Source: a virus
Virus record (IMG/VR): IMGVR_UViG_3300020410_000033
Span: 1 to 35,081 of that record
Length of the DNA stretch: 35,081 nt
Strand: one strand, 5' to 3'
The position numbers and the translations under genes are program-made. Positions 8,964 to 35,081 of this stretch are shown here, piece after piece. Position 1 is the first letter of the stretch; each line of letters starts with the position of its first letter. The notes beneath the pieces were generated by a model that saw nothing but the letters and a program-made list of their open reading frames with translations, searched no databases and had not been told where the DNA came from.

Positions 8964-9149
8964 ATGCATGACAGTCTTGAGAATTACTACAAGACAAACT
9001 TCGCATTGATGCAGCATCATAAGTATAGTCTCACTGAGCTAGAGAATATGATGCCTTGGGAGCGTGATGTTTATGTTAATCTCCTCTTAGCATTCATTCA
9101 AGAGGAAGAGCGAAGACAAAAAGCAGAAAGCAATCGTATGTCTCTCTGA
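8964..9149 (+). CDS. gp51: gp51-like baseplate hub assembly protein (61 aa)
   Basis: A small protein with the motif YYKTNFALMQHHKYSLTELENMMPWERDVYVNLL. Helical proteins of this pattern lie directly after gp26 and before the tape measure in cyanophages and are annotated gp51. Their pattern resembles the short second tail chaperone of other phages. T4 gp51 is longer (about 250 residues), so this may be only its functional equivalent. A ribosomal frameshift linking it to gp26 is not evident, since the two genes are separated by five bases. The stop overlaps the next ATG by one base. Confidence 0.7.
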   Translation: MHDSLENYYKTNFALMQHHKYSLTELENMMPWERDVYVNLLLAFIQEEERRQKAESNRMSL

Positions 9150-11914
9150 TGGCAGCCAAATTAAGGAAATTTGTTACTATCAATAAGTTTTCCGCCAAGA
9201 CTGAGGTGGGAGACGCTTTTAATGAGCTCAGAACAGGTATTAATCGTGCAGGAGTTGTTACTGATTCTATTGGTCAGAATGTAATAGCACAGTCAACCCT
9301 ACTAAAATTTCAAGCAGATTATCTTTCAGATAGTAGAAATAGACAGGTTACTATTGTAAGGAAGGGACAGAAACAGAAAACCAAATTCTTCAAAGACATG
9401 AAAAAACGTCTTAAAAGGATGTTTGGTCTCAAAAAAAGAAAGAAGGCAGAAGAAGTTGCAGAGAATGGTGTAAAGGAAGGAGCAAAACAAGCAGATAAGA
9501 GGTTTAGTAGTATTCGTAAACCTATAGAGAGTTTCATAGGTATGCTCAGTAAGACACTGGGCACTATGGTCAAGTGGTTTGTCATATATGGTGCATTAAA
9601 CTTTATTCAGAAAAATCCAGAGCAAGTAACTAAATTAGTTAAATTCTTCTTCACTCTAGGTAAGTTTGCATTTAAGATAGCCACTTTTGGTATGGGTGGT
9701 GTGATAGGAGGTCTAAGTAACGTATTTGGAGACCTTAGTGACAAGACTGGTGTCGAAAGGGGAATGCGTCGTTTTCTTGGAGTATTCCAGATAATTGGTG
9801 GTATAGCAGCATTAAGGACTGCTCAATATCTTGTTATGCCATGGAAGTTGATAAGTGATATTAAAGGTGTCAATTCTATGTTTGATAAGAATGCGATGAC
9901 TGCAGAAGAGTTGAGGCAATCGCAAAAGGCAAGATTAAAAGGTTATAGGGATAAGAAGACAGGAGTCATATACTCAGAAGATGAATATAATGCAATGAAA
10001 AAGTCAGCAAATAGAGCTGATGCTAAACGTGGTGCGAAGGCAGGCAAAGGGTATAAGTCTGAATTATATAATAAAGAATTAGAAAATAGATTCCAAAAAC
10101 AATACAGAGGTAAGGGTAAGTTACAGAAGTTACAGCAAAGAGGTAGAATTGCTCGTGGCAAAATGGTCAAGGGTGTAAAGGGATTTGCAAAGAAAAATCC
10201 AATGAAGATGGCAAAAGGATTTGCTGTTTTAGGTGGTGTTACACGGATTGCATCAGGAATGGCAATGGGTGAAGAAGCAGGGTCTGCGATAGGTGCGGGT
10301 GTAGGTCAGGCAGTTGGTGGTATGGCAGGAGCTGCAGCATTAACAGCAGTTGCACCATTCTTAGGACCTTTCGCACCTATGATTGGTAGTGCTATTGGTG
10401 GTTTCTTAGGTGAATGGGTTGGAAAAGCGTTTGGTAAGATGGCACAACCTATATTTGAGCCTATAAAGAGAGCATTTGGTATGTATTTTGAATTGGCAAA
10501 GGCAATATATAAACCCTTTATTGACAGTCTAGGACCTGTGCTTGGCGAAGTATTTAATGTGTTAGGTGCTCTTGGTGGAATGTTGTTTAAGTTTACAAAA
10601 CCATTAAGAGATTTCTATGGATTTGTTTTTAGTCAGGGGATGAAAGCGATAGGTGATACAGTAGCATTTGTAATTAACAATGCTAAACGATTGATGGACC
10701 CAGGAAGTATGGCACAAGGGTTTGCCGATTTCTTAACATTTAATATGTTTGATTTTGATAATATGAATGACCCTGAGAAGGAAAATAAAAATAAAAATAA
10801 AAAGAAATCACGAAGAGCAGAAGGCGGACCTGTATTTGTACCATTTATAGCTATGTCAACATCAGTGCGAGACGCACAGTTTGCAGAGGGTGGTGTAGTA
10901 AAAGCGTTTGAGTTAGGAATGAAAGTTGCAGGACACAGTCCAACTCAAAGATGGCAGGAGTTTGAGCAGGGTGGTAAGGTATTAACCGTACCATATTACA
11001 ATCAAAGAGCAAATGACGATGACCCACTTGGTCGTAAAGGAGATACACAGTGTTATTCTACTGTCATGGCAATGTGGACAAGTTATTTGACAAAGAATAA
11101 TGTATCTACAAAAGAATATAATAAGACAAGAAGTAAGTATGGGTCATCCACTTCCGCTTCAGCACAAGAGAAAGCATTGAAAGATTATGGTATTGAAAGT
11201 AAGTTGCAGACTGGTGTGCAGGGATATGATGTCTTAAAGAAAGAAATAGATGATGGATACCCAGTACCTCTTGGAATGAAGTATACAGGGTCGGGTCACT
11301 GGGCTATGTTGACAGGTTATTCACCATTAGGTTGGATTGTGCATGACCCCTTTGGTCAATTAGGTAAAGGTGGCAACTGGATTAAGAAGAATGCACAGGG
11401 TAGTAAGACTGATGGTGTAGGTAAGTCATATCTCATGACACGAGATATATTCCAAGACCAGTCACCTGAGGATGATATATGGATGTGGAAAGCACCTCGA
11501 AGTACGAAAGAAATTACAAAACCAAAATCAGCAGAGCCTAAGAAGGCATGGTGGGACCCATTAGGTGTATTCACAGGTAATAAAACTAAACTTACGACAG
11601 AGACAAAGAAAGAAGGTGCTGAGGAAGAGACTGAAGCAGGCAAAACTATTGCGTCATTATTGGATAATCTTTCTAAGGATATGGAGAAAGCATTAGGGCA
11701 AATTACGATGGATGATAAGGTTGAAACTAATATGACATTCTCTGATGCTACTCTGTTAAACAAGGCACAAAAGGATGCTGATGAGGAAATGCAGAGTAAT
11801 TTCGTTGTAATTACTCAACAGGTCGACCAACCCATAATAAATAATGTTAAGGGTGATACCCCTAATATTAGATATGTTTCTACCAACAATGGAATGCTAA
11901 CAAATGGCAACTGA
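9149..11914 (+). CDS. Tape-measure-like tail protein with C39-like cysteine peptidase domain
   Basis: A 921-residue protein. Residues 1-130 are basic and helical. Hydrophobic helical stretches (about 128-240 and 350-520) include a long Gly/Ala-rich segment, as in tail tape measures. Residues 611-790 look like a peptidase C39-type domain: VPYYNQ at 614-619, Cys635 in TQCYSTVMAMW, His717 in GHWAMLTGY and Asp733 in VHDPFG. This Cys-His-Asp order is that of clan CA peptidases. Phage tails often carry peptidoglycan-cleaving domains in the tape measure; cleavage of the host wall or of a virion protein is inference. It is a paralogue of the next gene in its N-terminal and central parts and overlaps it by 11 bases. 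Confidence 0.75.
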   Translation: MAAKLRKFVTINKFSAKTEVGDAFNELRTGINRAGVVTDSIGQNVIAQSTLLKFQADYLSDSRNRQVTIVRKGQKQKTKFFKDMKKRLKRMFGLKKRKKAEEVAENGVKEGAKQADKRFSSIRKPIESFIGMLSKTLGTMVKWFVIYGALNFIQKNPEQVTKLVKFFFTLGKFAFKIATFGMGGVIGGLSNVFGDLSDKTGVERGMRRFLGVFQIIGGIAALRTAQYLVMPWKLISDIKGVNSMFDKNAMTAEELRQSQKARLKGYRDKKTGVIYSEDEYNAMKKSANRADAKRGAKAGKGYKSELYNKELENRFQKQYRGKGKLQKLQQRGRIARGKMVKGVKGFAKKNPMKMAKGFAVLGGVTRIASGMAMGEEAGSAIGAGVGQAVGGMAGAAALTAVAPFLGPFAPMIGSAIGGFLGEWVGKAFGKMAQPIFEPIKRAFGMYFELAKAIYKPFIDSLGPVLGEVFNVLGALGGMLFKFTKPLRDFYGFVFSQGMKAIGDTVAFVINNAKRLMDPGSMAQGFADFLTFNMFDFDNMNDPEKENKNKNKKKSRRAEGGPVFVPFIAMSTSVRDAQFAEGGVVKAFELGMKVAGHSPTQRWQEFEQGGKVLTVPYYNQRANDDDPLGRKGDTQCYSTVMAMWTSYLTKNNVSTKEYNKTRSKYGSSTSASAQEKALKDYGIESKLQTGVQGYDVLKKEIDDGYPVPLGMKYTGSGHWAMLTGYSPLGWIVHDPFGQLGKGGNWIKKNAQGSKTDGVGKSYLMTRDIFQDQSPEDDIWMWKAPRSTKEITKPKSAEPKKAWWDPLGVFTGNKTKLTTETKKEGAEEETEAGKTIASLLDNLSKDMEKALGQITMDDKVETNMTFSDATLLNKAQKDADEEMQSNFVVITQQVDQPIINNVKGDTPNIRYVSTNNGMLTNGN

Positions 11915-19863: not shown

Positions 19864-20099
19864 ATATAATCAGCGTAGAGGTAGCAGAGTTTAAAGCAAA
19901 CTTTGACTTCATCATGTCACTTGTAGCAAAGGGACATACTGTAAAAATAAACACAGGAGATAAAGTTGCTATTATTACTTCAGTAGCACAGGCTCCACCC
20001 GAGATAAATATTCCTCAACCAGAGGAATTTGTGCCTGACCCTGCAGGGACACAGGCATTTGTCTCTGAATCTCTAGGACAAATGACACAGGATTTTTAA
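19860..20099 (+). CDS. Phd/YefM-antitoxin-like small protein
   Basis: A 79-residue protein that starts MNIISVEVAEFKANFDFIMSLVAKGHTVKINTGDKVAIITSV. This follows the N-terminal DNA-binding fold of Phd/YefM antitoxins: a first strand, the E-F-K-A-N-F helix, G-x-T-V-x-I, then G-D-K-V-A-I. The rest is Pro-rich and acidic and would be the toxin-binding tail in an antitoxin. No toxin gene of the Doc, YoeB or RelE type lies beside it. It may act as a transcription regulator or protect against a host toxin; both are inference. It is in a structural gene context between gp5 and the oxygenases. Confidence 0.6.
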   Translation: MNIISVEVAEFKANFDFIMSLVAKGHTVKINTGDKVAIITSVAQAPPEINIPQPEEFVPDPAGTQAFVSESLGQMTQDF

Positions 20100-20725
20100 T
20101 GGAAAACCTTAGTGATAAATTAGAAGATGTAATCCAAGCGGAGACGTATGGTTTCTTTCCTACACCTGTTACAAGAATCAAAGCAACACAACATGCAGAC
20201 CTTAAGAAAGGTATCATGGAGTGGATAAGTAAACAAGATATTTTACCTAAACATGGAAGAGAAACAATATGTCATGGCATCTCACAGATAGGAGAAACTA
20301 ATGCACTGATAAATGAGTATCAGGAATTTAGAGAAATTATCATGGATGCTATCCATAAACATAATGAATCATCTTATAATTACAAATCAGATTTACAAAT
20401 CTCTGAGAGTTATCTTGAGTTAGCAGCAGAAGGTGCAATCTATGCACCACATGAGCATAGTAATTGTGTATACTCACTTACTTACCTAATTAACTATAAT
20501 CATGAGCAGCACTCTTATATTAAATGGAGAAAGAATGTTGCATCGAATCATTATCCAATACTACAGATTGATAGTAAAGACCCTACTGCCTTTAATCTAA
20601 CAGAAGCAACCTTCAATATGGAGGAAGGAGATATTATTATCTACCCATCAAATGTCACACATGGATTTGATTCCAATCCTAGCAATGATAGAATTTCATT
20701 TACAGCAAACATTACCATAAGCTAA
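20099..20725 (+). CDS. 2OG-Fe(II) oxygenase-like protein (TIGR02466-type)
   Basis: A 208-residue protein with a double-stranded beta-helix pattern. Likely iron ligands are His118 and His120 (APHEHSN) and His188 (SNVTHGF), and Arg198 (SNDRISF) fits the 2-oxoglutarate salt bridge. The strand MEEGDIIIYPSNVTHGF is typical of phage oxygenases near structural genes. Such genes are frequent in cyanophages; their substrate is unknown and could be protein, nucleic acid or a small molecule. The start overlaps the Phd-like gene's stop by one base. The first residues (YGFFPTPVTRI) match the N terminus usual in this group. Confidence 0.8.
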   Translation: MENLSDKLEDVIQAETYGFFPTPVTRIKATQHADLKKGIMEWISKQDILPKHGRETICHGISQIGETNALINEYQEFREIIMDAIHKHNESSYNYKSDLQISESYLELAAEGAIYAPHEHSNCVYSLTYLINYNHEQHSYIKWRKNVASNHYPILQIDSKDPTAFNLTEATFNMEEGDIIIYPSNVTHGFDSNPSNDRISFTANITIS

Positions 20726-21027
20726 TGGTCAAAGCACAAATTACAAATAATTACTGCTGGCTTACATTGTATACTCAGAAACCTGAGGAGACAGTAAGGA
20801 TAATAGTAATGATGTGGTTTGTTAATGGTATTCCATTTACCTTTGAGGAGTTACCACAAGCAGTGCAAGAAATGCATGAGGTTGTAGTAGAGGCAGACGT
20901 ATTCTCGCTAGAGTATACTGACATTGACTTGTATCATTGGAGTGAATACCTTATAATGGAGGAGTGTCATCCTCTAATATTTGATATGGAATATATGACT
21001 GAAAATTATGATACAATCCCAGAATAA
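20725..21027 (+). CDS. Hypothetical protein (100 aa)
   Basis: An acidic protein with a strand-rich first half (CWLTLYTQKPEETVRIIVMMWFVNG) and a helical, acidic second half (EYLIMEECHPLIFDMEYMTENYDTIPE). It is coupled to the oxygenase gene through an overlap of one base and to the next one by 20 bases. No family recognised. Its position between two oxygenase-like genes may point to a shared role, which is speculation. Confidence 0.55.
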   Translation: MVKAQITNNYCWLTLYTQKPEETVRIIVMMWFVNGIPFTFEELPQAVQEMHEVVVEADVFSLEYTDIDLYHWSEYLIMEECHPLIFDMEYMTENYDTIPE

Positions 21028-21568
21028 TATTTTTAGTCAATCTTTTTATTGGAAATTTCAAGCACCAAATAAAGAGGAGTTAAGTACATTTGTATTAGCA
21101 CAAGAGAGTGGAGACCCTGTACCTTGGGGTAATCTCTGCTCTGTTAAGATGACACAGATACTAGATGATATACTTCCTATGATGCAACCTAGCATCAACA
21201 AATTCTGTGAAGAAGTTGACCAAAGAATGCTCATGTCTATGAATAGACCTTGGGTAAGTCATTATGAAAAGGGAGACTATCAAGAACCTCATGACCATAA
21301 TGATTGTGATGTTGTTGGTGTTTTCTTTCCAGAATATTTGGAGGGGTATTCACAATTTTATTTCCTAGATAGACATGTAGATTTATCATCAGTATGGAAA
21401 CGTGTTTTACCAACAGAGCAAACACATATTCCTAAAATCGAGGCAGGAGATATTCTATTTTTTCCTGGCCACATGTTACATGGGGTGTCATCCCACAAAC
21501 ATGACAATATAAGAAAAACATTATCCTGCAATTTTTGGGTAAAACAAATTGCACCTAAACTATTATGA
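21008..21568 (+). CDS. Second 2OG-Fe(II) oxygenase-like protein
   Basis: A 186-residue protein with the jelly-roll pattern. The motif PHDHND offers His95 plus His97, or His97 with Asp99 (an H-x-D pair), and the C-terminal part has AGDILFFPGHMLHGVSSH with His158 and KHDNIRKTLSCNFW with Arg169. This is the usual His, acidic or His, His and Arg set of Fe(II)/2-oxoglutarate enzymes. It is not a close copy of the first oxygenase, so this is unlikely to be a recent duplication. The stop overlaps the talC start by four bases (ATGA), which ties their translation together. Confidence 0.75.
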   Translation: MIQSQNNIFSQSFYWKFQAPNKEELSTFVLAQESGDPVPWGNLCSVKMTQILDDILPMMQPSINKFCEEVDQRMLMSMNRPWVSHYEKGDYQEPHDHNDCDVVGVFFPEYLEGYSQFYFLDRHVDLSSVWKRVLPTEQTHIPKIEAGDILFFPGHMLHGVSSHKHDNIRKTLSCNFWVKQIAPKLL

Positions 21569-22224
21569 AATTATTTCTTGACTCTGCTATAACAGATGAA
21601 ATCAAAAAGTATTATAATACTGGTTTGATTGATGGAGTCACAACAAATCCTACTCTGATATACAAATCAGGTAGAGACCCAGAAGATGTATATCAAGAGT
21701 TAATCGACATTGGTATACCTGACATTAGTATGGAAGTCGTAGGTGATGAAAATACTATGATTGGTGAAGGTAGAAGACTTATTAAAAAGTTTGGTAATCG
21801 CCAATCAACAATTAAAGTGCCCTGCACAGTGGAAGGTCTAGCCGCATGTAGAGCATTATCAGATGAAGGAGCAAGAGTAAATGTTACTCTTATATTCTCA
21901 TTAGCTCAATCTATATTGGCATATAAATCAGGAGCGACATATATTAGTCCATTTGTAGGTAGAGTTGATGATAACTCATTCAATGGTTTGGAATTGATAA
22001 AAGAAATTGCTGCTACATTCTGCACACATGATGTAGAATCAACAAAAGTATTAGCAGCGTCACTTCGTGATGTGCATAGTGTTGCTGAATGTTTCACATA
22101 TGGTGCTGACATTGTTACAATGCCACCTAAAATCTTTGATAAGATGTATAATCATGTATTGACTGAAAAAGGTTTAGCATTATTTGACGCAGACTATGCA
22201 GCAACAATCGGTAAAACACTTTAA
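21565..22224 (+). CDS. talC: Transaldolase TalC (FSA/TalC type)
   Basis: A 219-residue protein of the small transaldolase family. Visible motifs are MKLFLDSA (1-8), GVTTNPTL (24-31), IKVPCTVEG with the likely Schiff-base lysine at Lys84, and YISPFVGRVDD (126-136). Its length is full for this group. It moves a dihydroxyacetone unit between sugar phosphates in the pentose phosphate pathway. In cyanophages talC is common and is thought to increase NADPH and ribose for phage DNA synthesis, acting with CP12, which is also encoded 5.5 kb upstream. The gene overlaps its upstream neighbour by four bases and its downstream one by 29 bases. Confidence 0.95.
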   Translation: MKLFLDSAITDEIKKYYNTGLIDGVTTNPTLIYKSGRDPEDVYQELIDIGIPDISMEVVGDENTMIGEGRRLIKKFGNRQSTIKVPCTVEGLAACRALSDEGARVNVTLIFSLAQSILAYKSGATYISPFVGRVDDNSFNGLELIKEIAATFCTHDVESTKVLAASLRDVHSVAECFTYGADIVTMPPKIFDKMYNHVLTEKGLALFDADYAATIGKTL

Positions 22225-22654
22225 ACAGTGGATAGATGAGTGTTTTTTCTTGGGTGTGACATGGAATGATGTCATTGATAAGGTTGATGTTGATGTTTTT
22301 AATGGTGAGTGGGGTTATTGTGAAGACCCACAAGAGGGATTCATACCAACTATAGTATGTGAAGGTAAATGGACTCCACCTATTTTTAAACCTATCATAG
22401 ACAAAGTTGCAGATAATTTTGATTATAATAGAGTCCATACTTATATCTCATTTGCAAAGAGTAAAACACTTGGCAGACATAATGATACAATGGATGTATT
22501 CATTGTTAATGTGCTAGGAATAGTGAAATATGAGTTTGATGATGGCACAGAAGTAACTCTAGAACCTGGTGATGGCATACATATTCCTAAAGGAGTGTAT
22601 CATAACCCCTCAGTTATAGGTCCTAGATGTAGTCTATCCTTCTCAAAGGAATAG
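22196..22654 (+). CDS. Cupin/JmjC-like protein
   Basis: A 152-residue protein when started at the ATG at 22196; an upstream TTG at 22184 is possible but less likely. The C-terminal half is a cupin barrel: GRHNDTMDVFIVNVLG, YEFDDGTEVTLEPGDGIHIPKGVYHNPSVIGPRCSLSFS. His95 and Asp97 (HND) with His136 form a possible iron-binding H-x-D...H set, and Arg144 could bind 2-oxoglutarate. Cyanophages carry similar proteins, probably JmjC-type oxygenases; the substrate is unknown. The start lies inside talC. The gene ends just before a late promoter that serves the next structural genes. Confidence 0.7.
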   Translation: MQQQSVKHFKQWIDECFFLGVTWNDVIDKVDVDVFNGEWGYCEDPQEGFIPTIVCEGKWTPPIFKPIIDKVADNFDYNRVHTYISFAKSKTLGRHNDTMDVFIVNVLGIVKYEFDDGTEVTLEPGDGIHIPKGVYHNPSVIGPRCSLSFSKE

Positions 22655-30814: not shown

Positions 30815-31126
30815 ATGAATCGTGGTGCTGATGATTTAAAAGCAGAAGCAATCAGGAGATTAAGACCTGACGTTGATTTTATTATTATTGATGGAGAGAC
30901 TATTAAATTTCCAAATAATGATGCAAAAGCAATTCCTACTGCTAAATTAGAATATATGATGGAGGAAGTGCAGAAGGAGTGGGATATAAATGCTCAAGTG
31001 GAGAGACCACCACTTGATAAAATGTTGGAGTGGTTATGGACTGACATACATAACAATTCACTAAATAAGAGTGGAGCATTCTATACTTGTTGTAAACCTC
31101 ACTACATAAATAAGACAGGAGCATAG
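30815..31126 (+). CDS. Small protein, possibly a fibre assembly factor
   Basis: A 103-residue protein: helical start (DDLKAEAIRRLRPDVDF), strand FIIIDGETIKFPN, then AIPTAKLEYMMEEVQKEW and a C-terminal part with CCKPHY. The D-F-x-I-x-D-x-x-x-x-F-x-N pattern followed by a helix is often seen in cyanophage proteins next to fibre genes. A chaperone role is inferred from position between the 299-residue fibre and the glycine-rich adhesins. It starts two bases after the upstream stop. Its last codons contain a late promoter for the next gene. Confidence 0.6.
   Translation: MNRGADDLKAEAIRRLRPDVDFIIIDGETIKFPNNDAKAIPTAKLEYMMEEVQKEWDINAQVERPPLDKMLEWLWTDIHNNSLNKSGAFYTCCKPHYINKTGA
31105..31112 (+). promoter_or_regulatory. 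Putative late promoter for adhesin copy 1
   Basis: CATAAATA inside the last codons of the upstream gene, 20 bases before the ATG of the first glycine-rich adhesin. AGGAG at 31117-31121 is followed by the stop and then the start, so SD and promoter are close together. Confidence 0.5.
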
Positions 31127-31132
31127 TAAACA

Positions 31133-31942
31133 ATGGCACAGTTAAAACTGGGAGCTATCAAAGACTTAGGAGGAATTGGTGGATTCACCTTTTCCAGTAG
31201 TGGTGTTACTGCGAACGGGACTTTAACTGTTACTGACATTGTTATTGATGGTACCATCTCGGGGTCTTCGGGTTATATTCTTCCCAACCCATCTGGACAG
31301 TCAGGTAATTTCGTTACCAATAATGGCTCAACAATGTCATGGGGTGCTGTTAACTTGCAGTCTGGTATTCGCTCAATGCAAGTGTGGACTTCCAATGGCA
31401 CATGGAATAGACCAAGTGGTGTAAAAACTATTTTGGTTAGAGTTACAGGTGCAGGCGGTGGTGGTAGTGGATTCTGTGAGTCTGGAGGTGCAGGAGGTAC
31501 TTCTCAGAGACAGGTTGATGTTACTAACGTATCATCAGTCTCAGTCACAGTAGGAAACCCAGGTGGAGGTACTAACTACTCTGGTTGTGGTGGAGGTGGA
31601 AACACATCATCATTCGGAGGTTATTGCTCTGCATCAGGTGGATATGGTGCTAACTGTAGGCAACAGCACGCAGGAGGTATCGGTGGTAATGGTAGCGGTG
31701 GCACACTGAATATATACGGTGGTGGAGGTAACGGACACGGTTCTTATCACTCGTATGGTAACCACAGTTGTGGACAATCTTTCTATGGTGGTGGACAAGC
31801 AGCATCACACGTACAAAGAAACTACGGACATAATCATCAGTCTCATGCTGCATGGGGTAGTGGTGGTAATGGCACAAGAGAAGGAAATAGAGGTGCGAGA
31901 GGACGTGAAGGCGTCGTTGTTGTACATGAATTCTACGGATAA
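31133..31942 (+). CDS. Glycine-rich tail-tip adhesin, copy 1
   Basis: A 269-residue protein with an attachment-type N terminus (about 75 residues, GTLTVTDIVIDGTISGSSGYILPNPSGQSG), a linker RSMQVWTSNGTWNRPSGVKTILVRVTGAGGGGSGF, and a long Gly-rich C-terminal domain with repeated GGGGN, GGNGSGG and GGYG runs. The domain resembles phage glycine-rich tail-tip proteins, such as T2/S16 gp38, where polyglycine helices present variable loops that bind the receptor. That function is inference. The two following genes are close paralogues. This copy has unique Cys residues at FCESGG and SCGQSF, positions that differ between the copies. Confidence 0.8.
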   Translation: MAQLKLGAIKDLGGIGGFTFSSSGVTANGTLTVTDIVIDGTISGSSGYILPNPSGQSGNFVTNNGSTMSWGAVNLQSGIRSMQVWTSNGTWNRPSGVKTILVRVTGAGGGGSGFCESGGAGGTSQRQVDVTNVSSVSVTVGNPGGGTNYSGCGGGGNTSSFGGYCSASGGYGANCRQQHAGGIGGNGSGGTLNIYGGGGNGHGSYHSYGNHSCGQSFYGGGQAASHVQRNYGHNHQSHAAWGSGGNGTREGNRGARGREGVVVVHEFYG

Positions 31943-31945
31943 ATA
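31938..31945 (+). promoter_or_regulatory. Putative late promoter for adhesin copy 2
   Basis: GATAAATA contains the TAA stop of copy 1 and ends only five bases before the ATG of copy 2. A start about six bases after the motif would place the first transcribed base at or near the ATG, giving a leaderless message. Confidence 0.4.
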
Positions 31946-31950
31946 CTGAT

Positions 31951-32760
31951 ATGTCACAGCTCAAAGTTGCTTCAATAAGAGATTTAACAGATGCCAGAGG
32001 TTTCTCACTATCTGGTGGAGGTATATCTGCTATAGGTACATTGACTGTTGGTAACATTAATATCAACGGACAGATACAAGGGCAGTCTAACTATGTAATA
32101 CCACCACAGACAGGTAACTCTGGTAAATTCTTGAGCTCAAATGGCTCAGGATTGACTTGGCAAGAAGTTTCAACTTCTACAGGTATTCGCTCAATGCAAG
32201 TATGGACATCTAATGGCACATGGTCAAGACCCTCAGGAGTCAAGACAATTCTAGTTACTGTAACAGGAGCAGGAGGTGGAGGAAGTGGATTCGCAGAATC
32301 AGGTGGAGCAGGCGGTACAGCAGAGAGAACAGTTGACGTCACAAACACATCATCCGTTAGTGTTACCGTTGGTAACCCAGGTGGGGGTACAAATTACTCT
32401 GGTTGCGGTGGTGGTGGCAATACTAGCTCCTTTGGTAGTTACTGTAGTGCCTCAGGTGGATATGGTGCTAACTGTAGGCAACAGCATGCAGGCGGTATTG
32501 GAGGCAATGGGTCTGGAGGAACGCTAAACGTATATGGTGGTGGAGGAAATGGTCATGGTAGTTATTGGTGCTATGGAAACCACACTGCAGGGGGTAGTTA
32601 CTACGGTGGCACACAACCCTCATCACACAACCAACGTAACTATGCACACAGACATCAGTCACATTGTGCATGGGGAGCAGGAGGAAACGGTGCTAGGGAA
32701 GGTAACCGTGGTGCACGAGGTCGAGAAGGTGTGGTTGTAGTAAAGGAATATTACGGATAA
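31951..32760 (+). CDS. Glycine-rich tail-tip adhesin, copy 2
   Basis: A 269-residue paralogue of copy 1. Its N-terminal part is distinct (MSQLKVASIRDLTDARGFSL, YVIPPQTGNSGKF), and its glycine-rich part is almost the same, including GGCG-type runs, GANCRQQHAGG and the REGNRGARGREG end. The variable region reads SYWCYGNHTAGGSYYGGTQPSSHNQRNYAHRHQSHCAW, with Trp-Cys and Cys at positions where the other copies have His-Ser and Ala. It lies eight bases after copy 1, with no SD in the gap. It may be translated by re-initiation after copy 1 or from a leaderless message. Confidence 0.8.
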   Translation: MSQLKVASIRDLTDARGFSLSGGGISAIGTLTVGNININGQIQGQSNYVIPPQTGNSGKFLSSNGSGLTWQEVSTSTGIRSMQVWTSNGTWSRPSGVKTILVTVTGAGGGGSGFAESGGAGGTAERTVDVTNTSSVSVTVGNPGGGTNYSGCGGGGNTSSFGSYCSASGGYGANCRQQHAGGIGGNGSGGTLNVYGGGGNGHGSYWCYGNHTAGGSYYGGTQPSSHNQRNYAHRHQSHCAWGAGGNGAREGNRGARGREGVVVVKEYYG

Positions 32761-32763
32761 ATA
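32756..32763 (+). promoter_or_regulatory. Putative late promoter for adhesin copy 3
   Basis: GATAAATA includes the TAA stop of copy 2. It ends 20 bases before the ATG of copy 3, and a purine-rich AAGGGAA ribosome site follows at 32770-32776. Confidence 0.5.
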
Positions 32764-32783
32764 AAACGTAAGGGAATTATCTA

Positions 32784-33596
32784 ATGTCTGTTTTAAAAGT
32801 TACTGAAGTAAGAGACCTAGCGGGTATTGGTGGATTTTCATTCTCTAGTGGCACAGTTACTGCACTAGGTACATTGAAAGTCAATGACATCAATATCAAT
32901 GGAAATATTCAAGGTAGCTCTAACTACATAGTTCCTAATTTGTCTGGACAGTCAGGTAGATTCTTGACCACTAATGGCACATCAATGTCATGGCAAGGAT
33001 TGACTGCTGTAGCAGGATTAAGGTCAATGCAAGTGTGGACATCTAATGGCACATGGAGTAGACCAAGTGGTGTAGAAACTATCCAAGTCACTGTAACAGG
33101 TGCGGGTGGTGGAGGCTCTGGATTCACTGAATCTGGTGGAGCGGGCGGTACTTCTGAAAGAGTTATTGACGTAACTAATACATCATCTGTATCAGTTACC
33201 GTTGGAAACCCTGGTGGTGGTAGTAACTACTCAGGATGTGGTGGTGGAGGTAATACTTCATCATTTGGTAGTTATTGCTCTGGCGGTGGTGGTCAAGGTG
33301 CTAACTGTCGTCAGCAACACGCAGGAGGTGTTGGTGGTAATGGTAGTGGTGGTACCCTAAATGTATATGGTGGCGGTGGTAATGGTCATGGTAGTTATCA
33401 CTCATATGGTAACCACTCAGCAGGCATGTCATATATGGGAGGCACACAACCCTCTGGACACGCACAAAGAAACTATAGTCATAGACATCAATCTCACGCA
33501 GCTTGGGGTGCAGGCGGTAATGGTGCTCGAGAGGGCAACCGTGGTGCTCGAGGTCGTGAAGGTGTGGTCGTAGTTTATGAATACTATGGTGGCTAA
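32784..33596 (+). CDS. Glycine-rich tail-tip adhesin, copy 3
   Basis: A 270-residue paralogue, starting MSVLKVTEVRDLAGIGGFSFSSGTVTALGTLKVNDININGNIQGSSNY, which shares features with both other copies. Its glycine-rich domain differs from them at CSGGGGQGAN (instead of CSASGGYGAN) and in the loop SYHSYGNHSAGMSYMGGTQPSGHAQRNYSHRHQSHAAW. It ends in EYYGG, one Gly longer. All four cysteines of the conserved region (SGCG, YCS, NCR) are maintained except those unique to copies 1 and 2. It is expected to form the same tail-tip structure with another loop surface. Confidence 0.8.
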   Translation: MSVLKVTEVRDLAGIGGFSFSSGTVTALGTLKVNDININGNIQGSSNYIVPNLSGQSGRFLTTNGTSMSWQGLTAVAGLRSMQVWTSNGTWSRPSGVETIQVTVTGAGGGGSGFTESGGAGGTSERVIDVTNTSSVSVTVGNPGGGSNYSGCGGGGNTSSFGSYCSGGGGQGANCRQQHAGGVGGNGSGGTLNVYGGGGNGHGSYHSYGNHSAGMSYMGGTQPSGHAQRNYSHRHQSHAAWGAGGNGAREGNRGARGREGVVVVYEYYGG

Positions 33597-34104: not shown

Positions 34105-35081
34105 ATGAAAGTTGAATCTATTTGTATAATTGGTGGTGGTAGTAGTGGTTGGATGTCAGCAGCTATACTATCTAAAGAACATCCAGACCTTGAGATATGT
34201 CTGATTGAAAGTGAAAAAACTAAACCTATTGGTGTAGGAGAATCTACACTGGGACATTTTAATAGGTTTCTTATTCGTTTAGGATTAAAAGATGACACGT
34301 GGATGCCACATTGCAATGCCACTTACAAAACATCTATTGCATTTAAGAATTTTAGAAAGGGAAAGGGAGAGAGATTTCAATATCCATTTGGTAAGTTTGA
34401 TACTATAGATTGGTATTGCGATAATCCCATACGCTTTTATGAGTTGAGAGCAAAGTATGGTAAAGAGTTATATCCACCAGAAGAATTTGCCCGATTTGCC
34501 AACAGGTCTACATGGTTGGCAGAAGAGTGTCGTATGGTTGATAAGGAGATACCAGGTTCGGTATGGGATGAGAGATTAGATAGAGCATATCATTTAGACG
34601 CAGAATTATTCGGACAGTATTTAAAAGAGCACCATTGCATACCTAATGGTGTGGTGCATCTTACTGGGGAGGTTGGCAATGTAATTAAAAGACCTGATGG
34701 TAGTATTCAATCCATTATTACTGATGATGGCACTTCTATTAGTGCTGATATGTTTATAGATTGCACAGGTTTTAAATCATTAATACTTGAGCAACACATG
34801 GGTAGTCCTTTCGAGGATTTTCATTACAAATTATTCAATGATGCAGCACTCGCAACACAGATTCCATATGTTGACAGAGAAAAACAGATGGAAACATATA
34901 CTGATTGTGTTGGAATGAATGCAGGGTGGGTATGGAATATTCCACTATGGCATAGAGTAGGCACAGGTTATTGTTATAGTAGTAAGTATATCAATCAGTG
35001 TGAGGCAGAGGTAGAATTCAGAAAGTATCTTGCAGTTAGATATTCGCCCAAAATTGCCCACGAAGCAGAGTTTAAACCTAT
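34105..35081 (+). CDS. Flavin-dependent tryptophan-halogenase-like protein (3' end outside window)
   Basis: The frame stays open for 325 codons to the window end. It begins MKVESICIIGGGSSGWMSAAILS, an FAD-binding G-x-G-x-x-G site. Then come GVGEST (43-48), a TYKTSI segment with Lys75 at the position of the catalytic lysine of PrnA, and GWVWNIP (274-280), the W-x-W-x-I-P motif of flavin-dependent halogenases. The family adds chlorine or bromine to tryptophan or other aromatic substrates with reduced flavin. Halogenase-like genes are known in cyanophages, but their substrate is unknown. There is no SD next to the ATG; the bases before it are the T-run of the terminator. A consensus sigma70 promoter precedes it by about 50 bases. 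Confidence 0.85.
   Translation, partial: MKVESICIIGGGSSGWMSAAILSKEHPDLEICLIESEKTKPIGVGESTLGHFNRFLIRLGLKDDTWMPHCNATYKTSIAFKNFRKGKGERFQYPFGKFDTIDWYCDNPIRFYELRAKYGKELYPPEEFARFANRSTWLAEECRMVDKEIPGSVWDERLDRAYHLDAELFGQYLKEHHCIPNGVVHLTGEVGNVIKRPDGSIQSIITDDGTSISADMFIDCTGFKSLILEQHMGSPFEDFHYKLFNDAALATQIPYVDREKQMETYTDCVGMNAGWVWNIPLWHRVGTGYCYSSKYINQCEAEVEFRKYLAVRYSPKIAHEAEFKP

Follow-up and report, generated by a model that had tools for sequence, protein, structure and literature searches.

Three tandem glycine-rich tip genes in a cyanophage contig

The stretch of DNA analysed here (the window, 35,081 nucleotides) is a 35-kb viral record of a T4-like cyanophage, whose closest annotated relatives belong to the Kyanoviridae (P-TIM40 and syn9 among them). 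The original prediction placed three consecutive glycine-rich paralogues at 31133-33596, and we find the three open reading frames there (Table 1), in a gene order common to the window and its annotated relatives, namely tail-fibre genes, the adhesin block, a small conserved ORF and a tryptophan halogenase. In all three copies the profile of phrog_863, a 'tail' family that holds the syn9 gp38 group, covers residues 1-268, and the Pfam domain Gly_rich_2 (PF21722) is matched at 27.7, 28.5 and 32.5 bits in copies 1-3, slightly above its curated cutoff of 24.3. The Pfam search with copies 1-3 returned nothing significant besides this domain, which is also found at E<=0.1 in all 75 aligned relatives; invariant glycines and variable turns make up glycine-rich motifs parted by variable loops.

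The copies had been described as near-identical, which holds for the C-terminal part of the protein only, as overall protein identity is 74-78%. By segment it is 0.46-0.57 at residues 1-80, 0.87-0.93 at 81-205, 0.63-0.74 at 205-240 and 0.86-0.97 from 240 to the end, in agreement with the N-terminal ~80 residues and a loop at ~208-235 having been named as the divergent parts. Synonymous sites have diverged almost to saturation (pS 0.54-0.85 across segments and pairs), and the copies are therefore old: a recent duplication is ruled out, and their C-terminal likeness reflects conservation or protein-level selection and not recent copying. Four cysteines are not common to the three copies, two of them in copy 1 (C115 and C213) and two in copy 2 (C207 and C239); such residues had been assigned to the variable loop, and C213 alone falls within 208-235, with C115, C207 and C239 outside it.

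Three further observations concern the rest of the window. The tryptophan halogenase gene (PF04820, E=3e-74) lies at 34105-35081, right after the adhesin block and small ORF, and likewise in all annotated relatives examined. At 20099-22654, within the tail/fibre gene region, 2OG-Fe(II) oxygenase-like and transaldolase-like genes were recognised by eye from their translations, and 9149-11914 encodes a 921-aa structural-looking protein with a C39-like cysteine peptidase stretch (VPYYNQ...DTQCYSTVMAM), also by eye only.

Table 1. Features at and around the tip-gene block, in window coordinates
Feature	Position	Strand	Evidence
Conserved neighbour, 299 aa	29913..30812	+	phrog_7459
ORF just upstream of block, 103 aa	30815..31126	+	weak match to phrog_9114, a family also matched by the downstream ORF
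ATAAATA late-promoter-like motif, 27 nt before copy 1	31106..31112	+	motif scan; enriched at this place in family
Copy 1 (slot 1) tail-fibre tip protein, 269 aa	31133..31942	+	ORF; phrog_863 E=6e-59; Gly_rich_2
Copy 1 slot-specific N-terminal base, residues 1-88	31133..31396	+	N-domain tree by slot; no within-genome matching
Copy 1 private hypervariable segment, residues 206-220	31748..31792	+	weak matching, z=1.9
Copy 1 genome-matched tip segment, residues 221-240	31793..31852	+	within-genome 0.812 vs null 0.738
ATAAATA motif over copy 1 stop, just 12 nt ahead of copy 2; doubtful as a promoter of its own	31939..31945	+	motif scan
Copy 2 (slot 2) tail-fibre tip protein, 269 aa	31951..32760	+	ORF; phrog_863 E=3.5e-60; Gly_rich_2
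Copy 2 slot-specific N-terminal base, residues 1-88	31951..32214	+	N-domain tree by slot; no within-genome matching
Copy 2 private hypervariable segment, residues 206-220	32566..32610	+	permutation test
Copy 2 genome-matched tip segment, residues 221-240	32611..32670	+	permutation test
ATAAATA motif over copy 2 stop, 27 nt before copy 3	32757..32763	+	motif scan
Copy 3 (slot 3) tail-fibre tip protein, 270 aa	32784..33596	+	ORF; phrog_863 E=3e-58; AF2 model pLDDT 83.7; Pam3 fibre 7ypx_A fold match E=1.2e-8
Copy 3 slot-specific N-terminal base, residues 1-88	32784..33047	+	N-domain tree by slot; no within-genome matching
Copy 3 private hypervariable segment, residues 206-220	33399..33443	+	permutation test
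Copy 3 genome-matched tip segment, residues 221-240	33444..33503	+	permutation test
Candidate fibre-assembly chaperone, 141 aa, beta-rich N-terminus and three helices	33624..34049	+	homologue in 59 loci; model pLDDT 91.5

Copy number and rearrangements among relatives

Comparison of copy number and loops in related cyanophages had been proposed with the original prediction. From searches of a viral collection and phage records we drew 48 distinct loci of related T4-like cyanophages that carry the adhesin block, with three copies in 41/48 and two copies in 7/48 (syn9, Syn10, P-RSM6, S-WAM1, S-SZBM1, and the contig loci L048 and L049, the latter cut by its contig end). A second search gave 19 loci of a two-copy lineage, including its three isolates, together with two complete loci that have one profile-recognised member each. 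This candidate receptor-binding set is widespread, being present in dozens of marine viral contigs and several isolates.

Some loci depart from the standard arrangement. The first gene of L048 (L048:1541-2350) is chimeric, with a slot-1 base, a slot-2 tip and a crossover in the conserved middle, and is adjoined by an intact slot-3 gene; it represents either an assembly error or a real recombination event within the tandem array. Copy 2 of the P-TIM40 clade (L001:8814-10400; relatives L024, L027, L034, L035 and L038) runs on past the glycine-rich domain for ~259 residues, a C-terminal extension that has a weak Pfam match to COLFI only (E=0.056) and may be an added binding domain. Separately, syn9 gp39 (L002:8807-9985) repeats part of its own glycine-rich domain with an odd stretch between and looks like a rearranged copy, the copy of its close relative Syn10 being 272 aa. 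In S-CREM1 (L006:7190-7991) the first copy appears interrupted, as it is split into N- and C-terminal open frames; the second copy is intact.

Late-promoter-like motifs

Each copy had been credited with its own late-promoter motif, and an ATAAATA does lie upstream of each. Across the whole window the ATAAATA/TAAATA motif is not enriched (22 found vs 23.9 expected). Among the three-copy loci it occurs upstream of copies 1, 2 and 3 in 36/41, 31/41 and 22/41 cases, vs 2.9, 1.3 and 0.8 expected from a mononucleotide shuffle, an enrichment that is somewhat overstated because the shuffle preserves nothing beyond base composition and the box frequently coincides in part with a TAA stop codon. In relatives a TAAATA box is often found 24-32 nt upstream of the tip genes. 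The T4-type late promoter TATAAATA-like box is enriched and fairly well placed in the family, but it is badly placed for window copy 2, where 12 nt before the ATG leave little room for a leader, and it is absent before copy 3 in many loci. Moreover, in 18/41 three-copy loci the first bases of copy 3 lie within the 3' end of copy 2 (4-nt overlaps), so that three separate promoters are not a general feature. Judged from the motif positions, separate late promoters are plausible for window copies 1 and 3.

Predicted fold and the adjoining ORF

For copy 3, AlphaFold2 gives a monomer model of good confidence from residue 80 (block means 71-97), with pLDDT 50-75 in the N domain. Its best PDB fold match by Foldseek is the fibre of cyanophage Pam3 (TM 0.52/0.55), followed by the mycobacteriophage Bxb1 tail-tip protein and then, with weaker scores, by ALK/LTK ligand-binding domains; PDB sequence searches with the profile or with single proteins gave no usable match. 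Pam3 gp24 is a trimeric receptor-binding fibre (PMC9608196), and we predict that the tip proteins have heads of the gp24 type. The copy 3 model has no N-terminal helix, in a region of low model confidence, and so shows no Pam3-type alpha-helical shaft. Together, the 'tail' family, Gly_rich_2 and the Pam3 fold match lend good support to the earlier reading of the products as adhesins of the tail-fibre tip, in which glycine-rich supports carry variable distal loops. The comparison with T2/S16-type gp38 made there survives as an analogy only: no gp38 adhesin family appears among the Pfam/PHROG matches, 6F45 is absent among the 50 PDB fold matches listed, and the helical attachment bundle and beta-helix of the gp38 fold were not seen, the copy 3 model being without N-terminal helices.

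The small ORF downstream of the block has as its first PDB fold match the Pam3 chaperone chain 7ypx_a, at a non-significant score (E=1.2, TM 0.29), and shares the beta-rich plus helical layout of that chaperone (PMC9608196); this is no more than suggestive of a role in fibre assembly. On the other side, ORF _51 of S-SZBM1, just before the flank of the block, is a virion protein (PMC9146016 Table 1).

Bases follow the slot and tips follow the genome

We compared identity between different slots in the same genome and in different genomes, with 14 genomes of <85% identity that the permutation test treats as exchangeable. At N-terminal residues 1-80 there is no matching (within-genome 0.456 vs cross-genome 0.457, p=0.6), whereas residues 89-270 are more alike within a genome than across genomes (0.805 vs 0.772, z=10.2, 0/20,000 permutations), and still so after removal of the three genomes most suspected of conversion (z=8.8). 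This contrast was repeated in the two-copy lineage, there with five divergent genomes only (C 0.900 vs 0.859; N 0.538 vs 0.537). At glycine-rich/loop sites within-genome identity is 0.839, compared with 0.803 between genomes for different slots and 0.810 for the same slot (0/20,000 permutations). Expressed as excess, slot accounts for 0.223 in the N domain, 0.188 at variable sites on the predicted TNF-like strands and 0.027 in the glycine-rich/loop parts, where the genome-matching excess is 0.098; the strands, mostly slot-specific, yet show some genome matching (z=4.8). Within the tip, segment 221-240 (z=7.9, 14 genomes; Table 1) and also segment 171-180 are strongly genome-matched. Only segment 206-220 varies freely between copies, with weak matching (z=1.9, 627/20000 permutations).

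Quick trees, in which many forks are weakly supported, give a similar picture. The N-domain tree is ordered by slot, with 2 label changes needed, and the glycine-rich C-domain tree requires 7 slot-label changes, places all three P-TIM40-clade copies together (SH-aLRT 99) and groups the P-RSM6 and S-SZBM1 copies by genome. At the level of sequence, these comparisons show bases that are slot-fixed over long evolutionary times and, statistically, tips that are matched within each phage and vary from one phage to the next. The matched residues lie between glycine motifs and are on that account probably exposed.

At the matched sites, which were picked post hoc for this purpose, pairs of copies with the same residue share the codon in 0.515 of cases within genomes vs 0.518 across genomes (p about 0.55), and synonymous sites of residues 161-240 are not significantly genome-matched (p=0.10). 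Since residues are matched with no codon sharing beyond chance, and since the signal survives removal of the suspected three-copy genomes, amino-acid selection is favoured over recent gene conversion as the source of the matched tips.

Discussion

Receptor-binding proteins of marine cyanophages are poorly known, and the usual picture is that phages collect different ones. Taken together, our data suggest another arrangement, in which the three genes would encode paralogous fibre-tip proteins, each a TNF-like beta-sandwich that bears a glycine-rich lattice with exposed distal turns. The slot-fixed N-terminal base most likely assigns each copy to a separate partner, fibre or baseplate site, keeps it within a trimer of its own, or does both, and the tips are most likely kept matched because all three must bind one host-surface ligand. 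Segment 206-220 escapes this matching and may fine-tune each copy. On this reading a single specificity is probably displayed in three places on the phage, where it would serve avidity or geometry, with only modest differences private to a copy. We consider that one adhesin specificity on three stems, rather than three unrelated specificities or a broad repertoire, stands an even chance of being correct, and the L048 chimera counts towards it, since there a slot-1 base can bear the tip of slot 2. A fuller reading we hold more tentatively, at somewhat below even: the bases diversified by slot, and tip residues co-adapted across the copies of a genome via amino-acid selection, with shared (e.g. 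227, 229 and 177) and private (206-220) sites, and with either one specificity at several positions or one heteromeric tip as the outcome. Matched tips on diverging mounts would be a departure from, even a reversal of, what is usual among paralogous receptor-binding proteins. The matched residues, predicted to face the shared ligand, offer a testable map of the binding surface.

Published data on these proteins are sparse. The virion proteome of S-SZBM1, a shallow list of 30 proteins, lacks the homologues _48/_49 and includes the neighbours _51 to _54 (PMC9146016), and the cyanophage experimental-evolution papers (PMC9910659, PMC6224464) name other tail genes, none of them linked to phrog_863-type tip genes. 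Our literature search for concerted evolution of tail-fibre paralogues found no relevant paper.

The original prediction saw in the three genes a receptor repertoire, with copies of different specificity serving as mixed tips or as an allele store for recombination. Several findings fit this: the freely differing residues 206-220, the extended copy 2 of the P-TIM40 clade, the slot-1/slot-2 chimera, and the interrupted or rearranged copy in two isolates (S-CREM1 and syn9 gp39), which is expected if copies are partly redundant. However, at most variable tip sites the copies of a phage resemble each other more than they do those of other phages, with no codon sharing beyond chance, and synonymous saturation and distinct N domains do not fit frequent whole-gene shuffling. 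What is left of the idea is that 206-220 alone behaves in this way and that recombination is seen (L048), and we regard a repertoire as unlikely.

A slightly less likely explanation still is gene conversion alone, in which recombination between tandem copies homogenises the tips and no shared-ligand selection is involved. From the sequences, recombination between copies does seem to happen, with its clean crossover in L048 as the clearest case, and C-domain conversion signs are found in L012, L033, L036, S-WAM1 and S-SZBM1. Codon identity in the C domain exceeds the codon-shuffle expectation in L036 and L033 (z=4.9-6.7) and in S-WAM1 (z=6.0), with shared exact blocks of up to 53 nt, and window copies 1 and 2 share a 35-nt exact block; old conversion is moreover compatible with the data because synonymous sites are saturated. 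Against conversion stand the matched residues without within-genome codon excess, the synonymous sites of 161-240, the near-saturated synonymous sites of the window copies, and the matching that persists once suspected genomes are set aside.

Lower again we place an obligate heteromer, where the three proteins (elsewhere two) assemble into one tip and contact drives the co-evolution of their ends. Bases that differ under matched tips, a stable three-copy arrangement, closely packed genes (4-nt overlaps in 18 loci) and a structural relative that is a trimer (PMC9608196) all agree with it, but related lineages with two copies, perhaps one, are a poor fit to a fixed 1:1:1 trimer, and slot-specific strand residues suit separate homotrimers equally well. 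That the tips are matched to a single downstream chaperone which folds all three, and not to a receptor, is very improbable. A chaperone-like ORF does follow the block, the fold search puts the Pam3 chaperone first (non-significantly), and in Pam3 it is the distal fibre loops that this chaperone covers (PMC9608196). Given phylogeny, however, differences among the tips show no association with those in the ORF (partial Mantel -0.04, p=0.61, 17 genomes).

Comparison with known systems

The closest relatives of the window genes are syn9 gp38/gp39 and phrog_863, which are direct homologues (E about 1e-58) in the same gene order, with the tryptophan halogenase downstream; their 'tail fiber assembly' label is annotation only. 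Unlike the window, syn9, Syn10, P-RSM6, S-WAM1 and S-SZBM1 carry two copies, one of them rearranged in syn9. Similar to Pam3 gp24 (PDB 7YPX, 7YFW), the tip proteins are predicted to combine a TNF-like beta-sandwich with a glycine-rich lattice and a variable distal tip, and the adjoining ORF resembles the Pam3 chaperone in layout. However, the Pam3 fibre comes from a single gene and has a long helical shaft at its N-terminus, whereas here there are three tandem copies with short slot-specific bases that are mostly beta or unstructured. The gp38 of T2/S16/PP01 (6F45) is by description similar in that glycine-rich motifs carry hypervariable loops at the fibre tip (PMC6851490, PMC12892980), but unlike the window copies it caps gp37 as one monomer, whose fold includes an N-terminal helical bundle and a beta-helix. 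Finally, the branched tail-spike complex of Ackermannviridae likewise has several paralogous receptor-binding proteins encoded together (PMC11414711); those spikes recognise different polysaccharides, whereas in the cyanophage set it is the bases that differ most and the tips that are matched.
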